Source: a virus. Taken from it: 48,341 nucleotides of DNA. The notes beneath the pieces are model-generated. The model had not been told where the DNA came from. It saw nothing but the letters and a program-made list of their open reading frames with translations, and did no database searches. The stretch covers positions 1 through 48,341 of IMG/VR virus record IMGVR_UViG_3300038410_000025; one strand, written 5' to 3'. Positions 15,564 through 39,172 of the stretch are shown here, one piece after another. Position numbers and translations under genes: made by a program. Within the stretch, counting starts at the first letter, position 1, and each line of letters begins with the position of its first letter.

Positions 15564-15894
15564 CGGCTGCCCCTGGGAGGACCGCCCCGATGCCGTGCTT
15601 CACCATGTCGGCCTCGATCCTGGCCACTTCCTCCGGGTCCTCCCGCAACGGGTCCTCGTACTCCGGGGGACTCGGCAACGGCGTGATGGGCGGCACCCCT
15701 CGTACTGCCAAGAGTGCGTCCACGGCGTTGTCGGCCCGCTGGCGCTCGTGTACACGCTCCTCGTCCACCCGTTTCAGGGTCGCTTGCAGTTCCTCCAGAC
15801 GGTCGCGGAGTTGTTCTGCTTCGGCGGCATAGGAGGCACACCGTTGCAATGCCAATTCGTATTCCTCACGGTCCTTGCCGGTCAAGAGCCTCAT
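15553..15894 (-). CDS. Small coiled-coil protein between terminase and portal
   Basis: 113 aa, ATG overlapping the terminase stop (ATGA). Residues 1-60 form a charged coiled coil (ALQRCASYAAEAEQLRDRLE, LQATLKRVDEERVHERQRAD). A Pro-rich linker (PPITPLPSPPEYEDPL) and a short C-terminal helix follow. Possible packaging or portal-associated factor; function unknown. Confidence 0.65.
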   Translation of the reverse strand: MRLLTGKDREEYELALQRCASYAAEAEQLRDRLEELQATLKRVDEERVHERQRADNAVDALLAVRGVPPITPLPSPPEYEDPLREDPEEVARIEADMVKHGIGAVLPGAADGV

Positions 15895-18482
15895 GGTGTC
15901 CAGCTCTCCACCATCTCCAGCGGATTCGGGTCGAAGACATCGGACAATCGGTTTCCGTCCTCCCGATCCTCGCGTTCCTTTCGCTCGCGGAGCAGATCCG
16001 CCCAGAGGAAGTCGATCCGTTCCTTCTCGGCCCGTTGCTCCGGCGTCAACTCGGGAGTGGGGTTGGCGCTCTCCTCCGGCAGACCCACCGGGGCGAGGGA
16101 CGCATAGCCAGCCCCTTCCAGACAGTGGTCGTTGCCATCTTTCGGCTTCCCCGGGGCCTTCTCGTCCCACTCATAGTCGAGGATTTCCCGCCTCAAGTTC
16201 GGCACGCGGCCGCGCATGAGTTTCATCTTGCCAGTCTGGAGGAGTTCCGTCATGCGGATGATCCGGGCATTCACACTCCAGTCGTGGGGGGTACCCGCGA
16301 TGAGATCGACGGTCAGGAGTTCCGTGATGACCTGCATCGCATCCCGGCCTGTCATGATGGCCGATGGTTGGCGCCCGTTCAGCTTCAACTTCAGCCACCC
16401 GCCGCGTTGCGCGATAGAGGCGGTTGTCACGTCGTAGATCTCGTTCCACCAGTACAGGGTGCCGTTGGGCGAGTAAGACCCGATGGCGATGGCGGTGGGG
16501 TCGCTTCCCCCGCCGGCACCGTGATCCCACCCCACGATATGTGTCCAGTCCCGGGGAGCCTCAAAGGGGTCGCACTCGTGGAGCATCGGGTCAAATGGGT
16601 AGACCAGGCCGGAGTAGGAGGCCGCCTCCCCGCCGAACTGCTCCGCGAACATCGGCCGCGGGAGTCGCTTCCGCGCCTTCTCGATCACCTCTGGCAGATA
16701 CTCGCCTGCATGGAGGACATCTCCGAACTCGGGCACGTACGACACCTGGCAGGACCAGTAATCTGGGTCATACGCTGGATTGGGATCCCCGTTGATCCGT
16801 TCGCGCCGGCCATCCTTCCACGGCGTCCATTCCCCAGTCTTCGGCTTGAAAGGTGTGCTCGGGACCGCGAAGGAGTCCCAGACCCACCCGTACCCCTTGT
16901 GGGTGGTCGGCACGTAGGTGATACCCTGCCGCTTCTCGATACGGGCGTAGAGGTAGCGGTCTCGGAGATTGGAGGGCAGTTTCGAGGCTTCCGCGAGGAT
17001 GACCCAATCCAGTTGTTCCCGGCGGAGGTTTTCGGGGTTCTCCGCGCTGATTACCTGCACCCAAGAACCATTCTTGAACTCGATGTGCATGTTGCCGCCC
17101 CGGATGTCCCAGTGCCAGCGGCGGGCCCCCTTCCGCATCCCCATAGCGGCGAAGTCCTGCGCGAGATACCCGAACTCCTTGGCCCCGTCCTGGTAGGTGT
17201 TTCCCGTGAAATACACCGTCCCATTCCGACGAGCCAACCACGTGCCGTTTGGCGTCTTGGGGCACCAGACAACCCCTTGGTGCTGTATTCGTTTCACTCC
17301 GGCATACCGATGCTTTTGCGCCCCAGGCCAGATCCGGTTGCGCTCGTAGATGCTGAGACGGTATCCATGTTGAGGGTCAGGGCACATCGTCGTCTGATAT
17401 CCGGCGAGTTGGCAGGCCATCTGAAGGGAACTAAGACGGTCGGAGCGGGACTGCAACACCGCACGCTCGCGCACTTCCCTTCCTCGCGGAGTAGTCCGCT
17501 TTCTTTCGTGGCCGTCAGCCATCACCGAAACCGCGATGAACAATTCCAGTTGCGCCTTCGTGAGGCTCACGAGAAACTGCGGGGACACCACCTTGTCTGG
17601 AGCGACCGACTTGACGGCGTTTCCGGCTGGTCCATTCAACCCGAAGTCACCACACCGCAAACCGGTCGGCCCGGCTGAGCGATAGATCCAATCCCTCCAG
17701 GCCGGCTCGCACCGATCCTTGGCGGAGAGAAGGGAATCTCTGGGCGGGCCCAGCCATCCTCGCAATGACGCGGCAATACGGTCGGCTCCCGGCCCCTCGT
17801 TCTGTGAGATCGCGAGTCCGTCGCCGCAGGTATTTTCATGTCCCTCAGTCCAGTACCATGCGATGAGCTCCACAAACGCGTCCGTGTGCGTCGGCATCAC
17901 CGGGAGATTCACGACGGGAGCCGCGCAGGGAATAAACTCATTCGGCGACCCAAGCGTTTCGGAGGTCACAAATCGGTATCCGCGATCTCGCCGTGGGCCG
18001 TTGCCCTTTTCCCCGCTGCTTCCCGTCCATCCCACCAACCAGCGGTGATGGGGAGTCGTCAAGGAATCGTGGCCGCGGAAATTCATCTCCACCATCTCGC
18101 CGTCCCACGGATAGATGTGGATGGATTCCACAGACTGCCATTCTGCAAAGCCTTCGCCGTTGATCGTCAGCGCAGTATCGCTGGACCGTACCATCTCCAC
18201 CGTGAGCCATCCACGCTGCGTCAGAATCTCCGTCTCCACATCCACGCACGGCGCCACGATCCAGCCATGCACATCTGGAAACAGCATGGTACAGCCGACG
18301 TGTTTGGCCACGTGGTACGATTTCCCGTCCTGGGGCGGCGTGAAGAGGCCGACATTGCGTTTCCCTGCGTCCACGGCCTCGTCCATGAGGCGCTGGCCGA
18401 GTTTGGGCGTGTGGCCCAGGGCGGCATACCAGCGTTGCCTGGACTCGGCCAGGACGGAGCGGGGGATGTCACTCAGCGGCAT
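15891..18482 (-). CDS. terL: Terminase large subunit (packaging ATPase-nuclease), intein-interrupted
   Basis: 863-aa precursor; 513 aa after removal of residues 79-428, a usual size. Walker A is TPPQDGKS (48-55). The intein interrupts the conserved VAP-TYQ strand that follows. Walker B-like LDWVILAE (491-498) has Ala where Asp is common but keeps catalytic Glu498. The RNase-H-like nuclease shows GWDHG (651-655, Asp653) and DHCLEGAGY (785-793). The enzyme drives DNA into the procapsid through the portal and cuts the concatemer. Start ATG follows GGAGTCCCA and overlaps the upstream gene by 10 bases. All motor and nuclease residues seem intact, so splicing should yield an active protein. Confidence 0.95.
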   Translation of the reverse strand: MPLSDIPRSVLAESRQRWYAALGHTPKLGQRLMDEAVDAGKRNVGLFTPPQDGKSYHVAKHVGCTMLFPDVHGWIVAPCVDVETEILTQRGWLTVEMVRSSDTALTINGEGFAEWQSVESIHIYPWDGEMVEMNFRGHDSLTTPHHRWLVGWTGSSGEKGNGPRRDRGYRFVTSETLGSPNEFIPCAAPVVNLPVMPTHTDAFVELIAWYWTEGHENTCGDGLAISQNEGPGADRIAASLRGWLGPPRDSLLSAKDRCEPAWRDWIYRSAGPTGLRCGDFGLNGPAGNAVKSVAPDKVVSPQFLVSLTKAQLELFIAVSVMADGHERKRTTPRGREVRERAVLQSRSDRLSSLQMACQLAGYQTTMCPDPQHGYRLSIYERNRIWPGAQKHRYAGVKRIQHQGVVWCPKTPNGTWLARRNGTVYFTGNTYQDGAKEFGYLAQDFAAMGMRKGARRWHWDIRGGNMHIEFKNGSWVQVISAENPENLRREQLDWVILAEASKLPSNLRDRYLYARIEKRQGITYVPTTHKGYGWVWDSFAVPSTPFKPKTGEWTPWKDGRRERINGDPNPAYDPDYWSCQVSYVPEFGDVLHAGEYLPEVIEKARKRLPRPMFAEQFGGEAASYSGLVYPFDPMLHECDPFEAPRDWTHIVGWDHGAGGGSDPTAIAIGSYSPNGTLYWWNEIYDVTTASIAQRGGWLKLKLNGRQPSAIMTGRDAMQVITELLTVDLIAGTPHDWSVNARIIRMTELLQTGKMKLMRGRVPNLRREILDYEWDEKAPGKPKDGNDHCLEGAGYASLAPVGLPEESANPTPELTPEQRAEKERIDFLWADLLRERKEREDREDGNRLSDVFDPNPLEMVESWTP
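17199..18248 (-). mobile_element. Intein with LAGLIDADG endonuclease in the terminase gene
   Basis: 350 codons in frame. It starts at Cys79 (CVDVETEILTQRGW, block A), has block B TTPHHRW (TxxH at 142-145), and ends VYFTGN followed by extein Thr429. The terminal Asn is present, but the usual preceding His is Gly. Two LAGLIDADG-type helices, LIAWYWTEGH (Glu213) and LFIAVSVMADGH (Asp323), keep both acidic residues, so the homing nuclease could be active. The insertion site lies just after Walker A in a conserved strand, a typical intein location that makes clean loss the only tolerated escape. Confidence 0.93.
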
Positions 18483-19268: not shown

Positions 19269-19435
19269 TTCACCTGCTCCCACGGTCGCCCACATTCGTC
19301 GCATGAGGGACAGGGTACATACGTCCCGTCCCGGATCTGGTGGGTGGATGCTGAGGCACCGCAGGAACAGGCCGGACGCCAGTGGGTCCAGGTGCTCCTG
19401 GTGTTGGATTTTCTCGGGACGCGAGGCTCAGTCAC
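19265..19435 (-). CDS. Mini zinc-ribbon protein
   Basis: 56 aa, GTG start at 19435 overlapping the end of the 222-aa gene, with GGAGAGCATGGACC upstream. Basic N-terminus (EPRVPRKSNTRSTWTHWRP), then CSCG...CPSCDECG, two Cys pairs that can bind one zinc ion. One of many such mini-proteins in this genome. Confidence 0.6.
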   Translation of the reverse strand: MTEPRVPRKSNTRSTWTHWRPACSCGASASTHQIRDGTYVPCPSCDECGRPWEQVK

Positions 19436-20096
19436 GGTCCATGCTCTCCACGGTGAACCGGCCATACCCCCGCGGCCGCGCCGACCCGAGACCCTGCGCC
19501 TCGGCCATCTCCCACAGGTCTCCCCAGACTTCTTTGGTCAGAATGCTGGTATCTGGGAACTTCGCCCCGGCCTGCACAGCCCAGGGCAGCAGGTAATCGT
19601 AGCGACGCAGGATGGAGCGAGTCCCCATCCGGTCCGTGATCGTAGACCCCCATTCCCGCGTCCCCGTCTCTTCCGTGGCAGGCTCGCCGGTCCCGTTCGC
19701 AATCGGGAGGAGGTTTCCCGGGGCGTCCAGCACGATCAGGCCGCGCGTCAGCAGATCCTTCAGGCCCCGGACCTTGCGTGAGAGGCCCAGGGTCGTCGCA
19801 CAGTCGATCAGCAGCGAGGTGATTTGGTGGCCCCCCAGACACAGGACCCCGGCGGGGTTCCGGCGGAAGCCGCAGGACATACTTTTCTCCTCCTCTTCGG
19901 CGGTCTGTCCCGGCTCAATCCCCATGGCCTGCATGTTCTCCGCGATGATCTTCTCCGGGTCGCGACCATGCATCTTCGCCGTGATTCTGACCTCTTTGGA
20001 GGACATCTGTGCCCGAATGAGGTTTTCGGTCTTCGGCATCCCGCCAAGCAGCTCTGTGGTGCCGGTCAGTCGGAAACGGTACGTGATCCAGTTCAT
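19428..20096 (-). CDS. Conserved-looking protein of unknown function
   Basis: 222 aa, ATG with GAGGAGCTACCC. Begins MNWITYRFRLTGTTELLGGM, then a central acidic helix (GIEPGQTAEEEEKSMSCGF), LDAPGNLLPIANGTGEPATE, and ends with a Gly/Arg-rich loop LGSARPRGYGRFTVESM. The FRLTG...LLGG opening and GLGxxRPxGYGRF ending recur in phage proteins of unknown role. The fold recalls ferredoxin-like RAMP proteins only superficially. It is the first gene after the period-5 GG array, so the array forms its leader. Confidence 0.65.
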   Translation of the reverse strand: MNWITYRFRLTGTTELLGGMPKTENLIRAQMSSKEVRITAKMHGRDPEKIIAENMQAMGIEPGQTAEEEEKSMSCGFRRNPAGVLCLGGHQITSLLIDCATTLGLSRKVRGLKDLLTRGLIVLDAPGNLLPIANGTGEPATEETGTREWGSTITDRMGTRSILRRYDYLLPWAVQAGAKFPDTSILTKEVWGDLWEMAEAQGLGSARPRGYGRFTVESMDRD

Positions 20097-20109
20097 GGGT
20101 AGCTCCTCT

Positions 20110-20430
20110 CTGGTTTGGGTTGTCGCATTGGATTGGCGCGGTGGGGTACGGGGTGTCGCAGCGGCGTGGCAGGGATCGGTCCGTCGCAAAGGGGTCGGCA
20201 GGGCCCGGACGGGGGCGGCACGTCGCAATGGGTCGGTCGGTGGAGGAGTGGCAAGGCGCGGCTTGGGCTGTCGCACAGGTGCGGCAAGGGGTGGCGCGGT
20301 TGGTCGCAAGGGCCGGGGATGGCGTAGCTGGTTTGGGCATGTAGCAACGGTTGGGCGGGGAGGGGTCCGTCGCATGGGGTTGGACTGGGTTGGCTCGTCG
20401 CATCGGTACGGAAGGGCTCGGCTCGAATCG
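20110..20430. repeat. Non-coding period-5 GG array with GTCGCA boxes
   Basis: On the plus strand the sequence is built of pentamers of form NNGGN, in blocks of mostly 4, 5 or 6 units plus 2 bases, each block ended by GTCGCA. Perfect GTCGCA starts at 20122, 20155, 20183, 20222, 20270, 20303, 20369 and 20397; GTAGCA is at 20341. All point the same way, with spacings of 33, 28, 39, 48, 33, 38+28 and 28. A five-base period cannot be a codon pattern, and all three minus frames stay open over much of it, so it is non-coding DNA. It could be a packaging or replication site, or a structured leader of the 222-aa gene. Confidence 0.85.
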
Positions 20431-25979: not shown

Positions 25980-26682
25980 CCCGTTCTGCCTTTCGTGCGC
26001 TGAACTCCATGCAGTTCTTTAATTTCAACCGGATGGCCCGTTTCGTTCTCGGCACGTACCCTACACCCTCGCAATACGCCGCAGCCTCTAACACCAAGGC
26101 GTCTAGGTTTTTGGGGCAGCTCGTGAACAGCTTATCCATGGTTTCCCACCATGACAGGTCAGCGAGCCATGCCTTGTAGCGAGACAGGAAGGGAATTGTG
26201 GCCACTGAATTGCGAATCGGTTCCCATTCCGGAGGCCAGGAAGCGAATCCATTTGGGGGGGGAGTACTTAGTACGGGGGGTTTTATATTCTCTTCTCTTC
26301 TCTTCTTATTCTCTTCTCCTCTTAGACCGTTACGGTGTGATGCACGGAAGCGTTTTTGCCGTTCTGCAACTGTTGAATCTTCTTGGTACTTTTGCCAGTG
26401 TTCCCACGTAACGACGAACTCGCCGTTACGTTTTGTGCCCTCCTCAACGTTCACGTGTGGCAACAGTTTTATGCACGGAATCAATTCAGCTTCCGTTACG
26501 CCGAACATCGCCGCCAACACTCGATTGTTCTGTGAGATTGTGACCACACCGCCGGTCCCGTGGATCTTCGTGTATGCCCCGAGCATACACCATCGACCGA
26601 ATCCTATTGGACCAAGGGAGACCAACGCATCATCATCGAGTGCGGAGTGCCACAACTTAAACCACCGCTTTTGATCCGCCAT
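25948..26682 (-). CDS. Replication organiser / initiator-like protein
   Basis: 244 aa. The opening RWFKLWHSALDDDALVSLGP, then GFGRWCMLGAYTKIHGTGG and VTISQNNRVLAAMFGVTEAE, matches the N-terminal winged-helix of phage replisome organisers. WEHWQKYQEDSTVAERQKRF and a Lys/Arg/Glu linker follow. The C-terminal part (FLSRYKAWLADLSWWETMDK, CPKNLDALVLEAAAYCEGVG) is the usual helicase-loading section. It should bind the origin and load the host helicase. The linker codons form an origin-like polypurine tract, as in lambda O. Confidence 0.75.
   Translation of the reverse strand: MADQKRWFKLWHSALDDDALVSLGPIGFGRWCMLGAYTKIHGTGGVVTISQNNRVLAAMFGVTEAELIPCIKLLPHVNVEEGTKRNGEFVVTWEHWQKYQEDSTVAERQKRFRASHRNGLRGEENKKRREENIKPPVLSTPPPNGFASWPPEWEPIRNSVATIPFLSRYKAWLADLSWWETMDKLFTSCPKNLDALVLEAAAYCEGVGYVPRTKRAIRLKLKNCMEFSARKAERDAAQRAHEQR
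26255..26324. other. Candidate replication origin inside the initiator gene
   Basis: A run of eight G (26255-26262), the short palindrome GTACTTAGTAC (26264-26274), six G, TTTTATA, then repeated TTCTC/TCTTC units (26288-26324). The pyrimidine-purine bias and short direct repeats lie in the linker part of the initiator gene, the classic place for a lambda-type origin. Inferred, not proven. Confidence 0.45.
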
Positions 26683-33513: not shown

Positions 33514-34632
33514 TCACCCCGCACGGTCGATCCGTATTACCTTCGGCGGTTGCTTTTCGAGTTTGGAGCGCATTTCGGCTAGACGGTCTTGGGCTCTCCT
33601 CATGTCCTGAGTCGACCTTATGCCATAGCGATCTAGCATCGCTCGTGTCTTATGCCCAAGCATTCTCATAACGGTTGTTTCGTCAACGCCTGCGTTGAGA
33701 AGATCACGAGCCACGGTTCTCCTGCAATCGTAGAAGATCCTATCCGGATATCCTGCCGCGACCTTCGCCCGCTTGAAAGCTTTGTTCCGGATGTTGTTGT
33801 CAAGCCTCCGCCCGCCACGATGAAATACCCATGGAATGATTTGGTCATCGAGGATCCGAAGCGTCAGGCGCCGCTGGATAACTTCCCACATTGGACCCCC
33901 GAGAGGGATGGGCCACGCCTGTTCATTCTTCGACTCTTCGACGACAAAACTCTTGGTGTCGATCGACACTGATTTCCATTGAAGGTTCGCCAACTCCGAG
34001 GGTCGGCGCCCGCAGTAGTAGGAGAACTCCCACATGTCGGCCACGTCTGCGTCGATCTTCCGCAGTTCCTCGTGGATGGCGTTGAACTCTCCCACCTCCA
34101 TGAAGCCAGACCGTGCGTCGTGGGGGTTGAAGCAGGTGATCCTGGGGACGAACGCGATCTTGCGATCTCGGAAGGCGAGGTTGAGGACGGCCCGGAAGAT
34201 CCGCGCGTATCGGTCCACGCTGCCTGGCGCGTACCCTACACCAATCATCTTCGTACGCCATTCGTCCACCCGCTCCGGGGTGAGAGCGTTCGCGCGGATC
34301 GGGCCGAACTCCTCCAGGAGGTGGTTCAGATTGTATCGGAGAGACGCCGGATTCTTGGAGAGTGGCAGGCGCAAGGTCCGATATGCCTCGATCAGGTCGG
34401 CCACCGTCAACTTCTCGTTGTACGGCCCGACCCACTCAGGCCTGTTGATTTGCTTCAGCCGCGCCTTGAAGACTCCCCAGGCGGCACGTTCGGCATTCTT
34501 CTCTGCTACCTGGACACCCGTGGACTCTCTCTTCTCTACCCGGCAGACCTTACCATTTCGCATCGCTGACACCCTGAAGGCCATCCACCAGACATTTCCG
34601 CGCTTGAAAATTCTCCCATCGCCTCTTGACAT
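33514..34632 (-). CDS. int: Tyrosine integrase
   Basis: 372 aa. N-terminal arm-type part, core-binding domain (LTVADLIEAYRTLRLPLSKN, RVDEWRTKMIGVGYAPGSVD), and catalytic domain with YYCGRRPSEL (Arg210, Glu213), Lys235, YDCRRT (Arg304), LGHK (His327) and nucleophile Tyr336 in LDRYGI. The usual His of the HxxR box is Tyr301. It integrates the phage into the host chromosome and marks the phage as temperate. No excisionase is next to it. Confidence 0.93.
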   Translation of the reverse strand: MSRGDGRIFKRGNVWWMAFRVSAMRNGKVCRVEKRESTGVQVAEKNAERAAWGVFKARLKQINRPEWVGPYNEKLTVADLIEAYRTLRLPLSKNPASLRYNLNHLLEEFGPIRANALTPERVDEWRTKMIGVGYAPGSVDRYARIFRAVLNLAFRDRKIAFVPRITCFNPHDARSGFMEVGEFNAIHEELRKIDADVADMWEFSYYCGRRPSELANLQWKSVSIDTKSFVVEESKNEQAWPIPLGGPMWEVIQRRLTLRILDDQIIPWVFHRGGRRLDNNIRNKAFKRAKVAAGYPDRIFYDCRRTVARDLLNAGVDETTVMRMLGHKTRAMLDRYGIRSTQDMRRAQDRLAEMRSKLEKQPPKVIRIDRAG

Positions 34633-38788: not shown

Positions 38789-39172
38789 TCATCCAGTCGT
38801 GGCGCCAGTAGGCGATCTCGGACCAAGTGGCACTTTTTTTGGGTCGCGCTCCACATGGAGATGATCTCCTTCGACCACGACATCAAAGGGCTTCCCAAGC
38901 CGTTCTTCCAGGAGGCCGGCCCATACCTCCGCATAATCCTTGTCGCGAAGGTCCACGGCGAGGCCCAAGCCGCTCGGGGAATTCTGCTGGTAATGCAGGC
39001 TATTCCGGGCATGCACGCCGTCTCTGGGGTGTCCCTCGCAGCCCGACGTGATAACCATGTCGGCGTCGATCAGCCTCCGCAAGGCCTCCTGGCGGCACTC
39101 GTCAATGACGGTCAGGACCTCCCGCATCTCGGGATCGAGGTGCTCGATGTCCACGCCCCCATTCAATTTCAT
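38789..39172 (-). CDS. M15-type peptidase, candidate endolysin
   Basis: 127 aa, ATG 39172 (MKLNGGVDIEHLDPEMREVL). Zinc-peptidase motifs: NSLHYQQNSPSGLGLAVDLR (S-x-H...G-x-A-x-D) and EGDHLHVERD (D-H-L-H), with VITSGCEGH before. This is the D-Ala-D-Ala carboxypeptidase / L-Ala-D-Glu endopeptidase fold (peptidase M15). No signal peptide, so a holin would be needed for release, or the enzyme could be part of the virion. The neighbours support lysis. Confidence 0.82.
   Translation of the reverse strand: MKLNGGVDIEHLDPEMREVLTVIDECRQEALRRLIDADMVITSGCEGHPRDGVHARNSLHYQQNSPSGLGLAVDLRDKDYAEVWAGLLEERLGKPFDVVVEGDHLHVERDPKKVPLGPRSPTGATTG

Follow-up and report, generated by a model that had tools for sequence, protein, structure and literature searches.

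What does a noncoding array of five-base repeats, punctuated by a recurring hexamer, do in a phage genome? The question is raised by IMG/VR virus record IMGVR_UViG_3300038410_000025 (48,341 nucleotides, analyzed at full length and called the window here), in which such an array occupies the gap between a minus-strand gene for an 86-aa protein and the Shine-Dalgarno sequence of a minus-strand gene for a 222-aa protein. An initial annotation proposed that it is a packaging site, a replication or partition site, or an RNA leader of the 222-aa gene. Our analysis shows that the array is real and suggests that it is probably a functional guide RNA array of a boxed system of the VIPR (Viral Interference Programmable Repeat) type.

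Layout of the array

The initial annotation described a period-5 NNGGN array with nine boxes in one direction, spaced in five-base steps, and this description holds. An HMM parse resolved 315 bases into 48 GG units, the remaining bases being variable, with eight GTCGCA boxes and one GTAGCA box, every one on the plus strand (Table 1). Start-to-start distances between boxes are 33, 28, 39, 48, 33, 38, 28, and 28; seven of these eight are 3 mod 5, and the spacing of 39 reflects a one-base slip. GG periodicity also exceeds that of shuffled sequence: the lag-5 GG autocorrelation is 38, versus a mean of 18.5 (standard deviation, 3.6) and a maximum of 30 in 2,000 dinucleotide-preserving shuffles, and no other stretch of the 48 kb comes near its GG period-5 score. 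Variable NN steps continue through the boxes (NN-GTCGCA-NN), so a box replaces one GGN step; the replacement adds three bases, and the resulting spacings are 8 + 5n.

Table 1. Features of the array locus in the window
Feature	Position	Strand	Basis
Putative guide RNA (vrRNA-like) array, NN-GGN steps plus GTCGCR boxes	20110..20424	+ (strand bearing GG)	HMM parse, autocorrelation, box spacing, same grammar in 13 other contigs
Box 1, GTCGCA	20122..20127	+	Sequence
Box 2, GTCGCA	20155..20160	+	Sequence
Box 3, GTCGCA	20183..20188	+	Sequence
Box 4, GTCGCA	20222..20227	+	Sequence
Box 5, GTCGCA	20270..20275	+	Sequence
Box 6, GTCGCA	20303..20308	+	Sequence
Box 7, GTAGCA (one mismatch)	20341..20346	+	Sequence
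Box 8, GTCGCA	20369..20374	+	Sequence
Box 9, GTCGCA	20397..20402	+	Sequence
Shine-Dalgarno-like AGAGGAG of the 222-aa gene, abutting the array	20103..20109	-	Sequence
vipr-like gene, 222 aa, predicted Cas7-family RAMP with C-terminal Gly-rich loop GLGSARPRGYGRF	19428..20096	-	Homologues beside other arrays, AlphaFold2 model plus Foldseek, BLASTP to SUSP1 Vipr

A coding origin, which the initial annotation already excluded, can be rejected: the 5n + 8 spacing disrupts every reading frame, and near-identical genes elsewhere flank almost wholly different arrays. The window contains no long identical repeats, and apart from two tRNAs no Rfam family, hammerhead ribozymes included, was detected in it or around 11 other loci. 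A TTCTC-rich tract at 26288 to 26324 also has a five-base period; it is plain low-complexity sequence with neither GG phasing nor boxes, and not a second array.

Elsewhere in the window, a minus-strand gene (15891 to 18482) encodes an 863-aa terminase large subunit, seemingly with an intein-like insert: its terminase match begins at residue 421, and residues 79 to 176 match a phrog named thymidylate synthase, perhaps via its intein. A tyrosine recombinase gene (33514 to 34632, minus strand; Pfam Phage_integrase, E = 3e-21) suggests that the phage is probably temperate.

Related arrays and the gene that accompanies them

The 222-aa protein is, by structure prediction, a Cas7-like RAMP. Its AlphaFold2 model (mean pLDDT, 81) gave best Foldseek matches to type VII Cas7, Csm3, and Cmr proteins (E = 3e-7 to 1e-6), and among viral structures it matched, among others, one named "Cas system-associated RAMP superfamily protein"; relatives matched PADLOC Csm4 (best E, 2e-6), and the window protein itself had no match there. 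In a single pairwise BLASTP comparison it aligned with Vipr of phage SUSP1 (E = 7e-8), to which it is homologous; the probable Vipr in the SUSP1 genome is the product of a 195-aa gene flanked on both sides by GG-phased tracts. We therefore call the window gene and its homologues vipr-like, or simply vipr. The family is diverse, with too few conserved stretches for a diverse alignment, and the window protein as sole query retrieved no relatives from viral contigs or named phages.

When viral contigs were scanned for phased GG together with GTCGCA, and for the GTCGCG form, true arrays emerged in 13 other contigs, several with 20 to 65 boxes. All array contigs share one grammar on the GG strand, NN GGN NN GGN ... 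NN GTCGCR NN GGN, with blocks of 4 to 8 repeats between boxes. In 12 parsed arrays, the spacing of neighboring GTCGCR boxes is 3 mod 5 in 111 of 154 cases (binomial P of ~6e-44 for 0.2), and G makes up 98% and 82% of the two G columns; the NN columns are near random, at 0.03 and 0.09 bits. Across 255 boxes, GTC is almost invariant. No common flank of the boxed arrays stood out. Seven single matches to the array pattern in bacterial genomes were judged to be due to chance, with no array around any of them, and a plasmid search with one family member gave no match.

The initial annotation had suggested looking for such arrays before the terminase genes of related phages; the arrays exist, but they are linked to the RAMP gene rather than to packaging genes. 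A homologue of the 222-aa protein is present in 12 of the 13 other array contigs, and the 13th stops inside its array. (The 12 comprise nine of 11 records from a whole-record alignment search, one further array contig, and two array records found later; the two of the 11 without the protein are one contig ending inside its array and one with just a doubtful two-box match.) Among 42 control contigs caught by chance pattern matches, none has a homologue. Bar one weak match in another gene, vipr is the only gene common to the window and the other array loci, which come from otherwise unrelated phages; no neighboring or accessory gene is shared. In the 13 loci where both array and gene are visible, the GG strand is always opposite to vipr, and the array lies 5' of vipr in six (window included), 3' in six, and 5 kb away in one.

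Array content turns over while the vipr-like gene stays. Two contigs (G009 and G010) encode nearly identical proteins, but their arrays have essentially one 48-base block in common, with two NN positions differing; the arrays of another pair (G004 and G006) differ by an internal deletion. The distant array, that of G005 (L093, 8800 to 11720), spans ~2.9 kb with 65 parsed boxes; two of its blocks are near duplicates, with few NN positions distinguishing them.

With diverged family members as queries, homologues were also found in two named phages, Microcystis phage Mae-JY09 and Hydrogenobaculum phage 1, each with a noncoding stretch of five-base period directly 3' of the gene. In the Mae-JY09 stretch a related GTC box recurs at spacings that include several of 33 and one of 48; that of Hydrogenobaculum phage 1 is G-phased, not GG-phased, and its kinship to the boxed arrays is uncertain. 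Just past the Mae-JY09 array (L101, ~38870 to 38900, in the stretch from the array to the record end) lies a perfect long hairpin, GAACTTCCCCCTGCGCAGGGGGAAGTTC, with no T run.

Comparison with known repeat-guided systems

VIPR systems, whose mechanism has been published for SUSP1 and Pseudomonas fulva VIPRs, pair a phage RAMP, which has an RRM core, a G-loop, and a thumb, with guide RNAs in which conserved GGY alternates with variable NN; the guides skip single bases as they read DNA, and phages are thought to use these systems to silence rival phages (PMC13142463). The consensus is GGY, with related consensus sequences also allowed, and SUSP1 Vipr works with RNA of the GG strand; the main text of the preprint names staggered arrays and seven types and does not mention GTC boxes (PMC13142463). 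One of the seven types may already include the boxed variant.

The window locus and its relatives share the general traits of this class: a small phage-encoded RAMP related to Vipr (by Foldseek, Gly-rich loop, and BLASTP) and, in 12 arrays, noncoding five-base repeats in tandem, conserved at GG and variable at NN, that occupy long intergenic stretches near vipr. They differ from the SUSP1-like systems (type II) in several respects. Type II arrays have 9 to 16 uninterrupted repeats, whereas GTC(GCR) boxes shift the phase of boxed arrays by three bases every 4 to 8 repeats; type II arrays end in an invariable structured 3' tail, whereas the last GG of the window array lies ~20 bases from the next gene, with no space for a long tail; and type II vipr has the vap accessory gene beside it, whereas loci of the boxed lineage have no neighbor in common apart from vipr. 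The base after GG is only weakly pyrimidine in boxed arrays (~60%, hardly above neighboring bases), compared with 96% in canonical tracts. In the protein tree, the SUSP1-like and boxed groups separate at 100/100, placing the window protein outside the SUSP1 clade.

Strand also distinguishes the two groups: GGY tracts accompany the Vipr relatives in Medea1, LESphi2, LittleE, Trine, and UmaThurman on the same strand as vipr and are mostly uninterrupted. In Gordonia phage UmaThurman (L172, 4587 to 4897), ~310 bases of GGYNN directly follow the vipr homologue, with several phase slips and no GTCGCR boxes; this is possibly the staggered type named in the preprint (PMC13142463). The boxed lineage is a separate Vipr lineage with features unseen in the SUSP1-like loci examined, and, judged by the preprint's main text, the window locus is a VIPR-type variant not described before (PMC13142463).

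With the backbone of type III and VII CRISPR-Cas systems (Csm3, Cmr, and Cas7), the boxed loci share the predicted RAMP fold and Gly-rich loop and an array of RNA units beside the gene, and their eight-base element of invariant bases plus NN recalls the eight-base 5' handle of crRNAs. The window differs in having a single RAMP and a five-base rather than six-base step; CRISPR-Cas combines identical repeats and unique spacers with cas adaptation and effector genes, but the window has no long identical repeats, no cas genes were seen near the locus, and no cas families were found among the window proteins scanned. TRAP-bound leader RNAs also carry a regular, roughly five-base repeat, and part of the boxed loci share their leader position. 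The boxed-array protein, however, has an unrelated fold, TRAP leaders have no boxes, and boxed arrays are much longer and also occur 3' of the gene or far from it.

A guide RNA reading and its rivals

Because the adjacent gene encodes a predicted Cas7-like RAMP homologous to Vipr, the array is best read as a template for guide RNA. We put at roughly three in four the probability that the locus is an RNA-guided system of the VIPR type, in a separate boxed lineage, with the array serving as the source of a guide transcript. The 222-aa RAMP would line this RNA, one copy per five-base step, gripping the conserved GG while the variable bases stay available for gapped pairing with the DNA of a rival phage or another mobile element, and such pairing would block expression of the target. 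For its own systems, the preprint shows RAMP coating of RNA and gapped target pairing (PMC13142463); by homology, RAMP should coat boxed-array RNA, one subunit per five bases, and expose the variable bases. The GTCGCR box, in effect a GTC insertion with a three-base phase shift, would probably mark off each short guide, as its border or handle, which would give the window array about nine guides. A more novel proposal, to which we give somewhat less than even odds, is an undescribed VIPR branch with two peculiarities: the three-base GTC insertion splits one array into many short guides, each with its own handle, and reading either proceeds from the strand opposite to vipr or has changed to a CC code.

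Several observations count against a VIPR-type reading: the weak GGY signal, the absence of a 9- to 16-repeat tract with a structured tail and of an accessory gene, the reversed strand relative to canonical relatives, promoter and terminator scans that gave no evidence for a GG-strand RNA, and the failure of local tests and four collection scans to find a convincing natural target. Local target tests with skips of 0 to 3 showed no excess, that at skip 3 coming from arrays matching themselves. Decoded guides had 3, 12, 35, and 0 matches in the four collection scans. The skipped base falls at the codon wobble position in 12 of 12 window-guide matches and 34 of 35 G005-guide matches; this pattern was not counted as a target, since the 35 come from many unrelated proteins with a common turn motif resembling AKDENGKP, no match drew in further guides from its own array, and for pooled guides phase bias was hardly above column-shuffled controls, in a set that included loci retrieved with those guides. 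On the GG strand, NN composition best fits the reverse complement of codon positions 1 and 2, as expected for a wobble-skipping antisense guide, a fit that is compositional and weak; TAA and TAG triplets are depleted on the CC strand, an effect confounded with general CTAG avoidance.

Could the working RNA instead be the CC strand, cotranscribed with the RAMP gene, with units of NN-YGCGAC-NN-(NCC-NN)n and recognition of CC rather than GG? CC is the vipr-sense strand in all 13 loci, with arrays on either side of the gene, so CC RNA would arise from ordinary operon transcription, and its use would explain the constant orientation of the arrays. In the window and in G009 and G010, moreover, the last unit leads directly into the ribosome-binding site of vipr. 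The G005 array is followed on its CC strand by a terminator-like hairpin with a T run, and another array (G013) is followed on its GG strand by a terminator-like site, both within chance expectation; promoter and terminator scans left the choice of strand undecided. We favor the GG strand by about two to one because of the homology to SUSP1 Vipr, which uses GG-strand RNA (PMC13142463), and regard this inverted polarity as the less likely reading.

The remaining rivals bring back the proposals of the initial annotation. Its link between array and 222-aa gene is upheld by the homologues beside other arrays, but its leader RNA is harder to sustain. As a platform in the vipr mRNA leader, the array would bind RAMP for autorepression, as TRAP does on trinucleotide repeats, with no external target. 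Its location between an upstream gene and the vipr start in six loci fits this idea; the seven loci with the array 3' of vipr or 5 kb away, the length of the G005 array, and the fast turnover of NN content make it improbable. A packaging (pac), replication, or partition site acting as DNA is more improbable still: the window array does lie ~1.6 kb upstream of the terminase large-subunit gene in operon order, but arrays travel with the vipr family on either side of the gene or at a distance, their inner sequence is not conserved, and no packaging gene is shared.

The locus also has a practical use: its DNA signature, GTCGCR plus NNGGN with spacings of 8 + 5n, detects such systems even where protein similarity is lacking. 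VIPR was not reported until 2026, when it was put forward as a possible forerunner of CRISPR (PMC13142463). The boxed branch may show how a continuous repeat code is split into guide units with a fixed element; such division of guide arrays would be a step toward CRISPR-like arrays.
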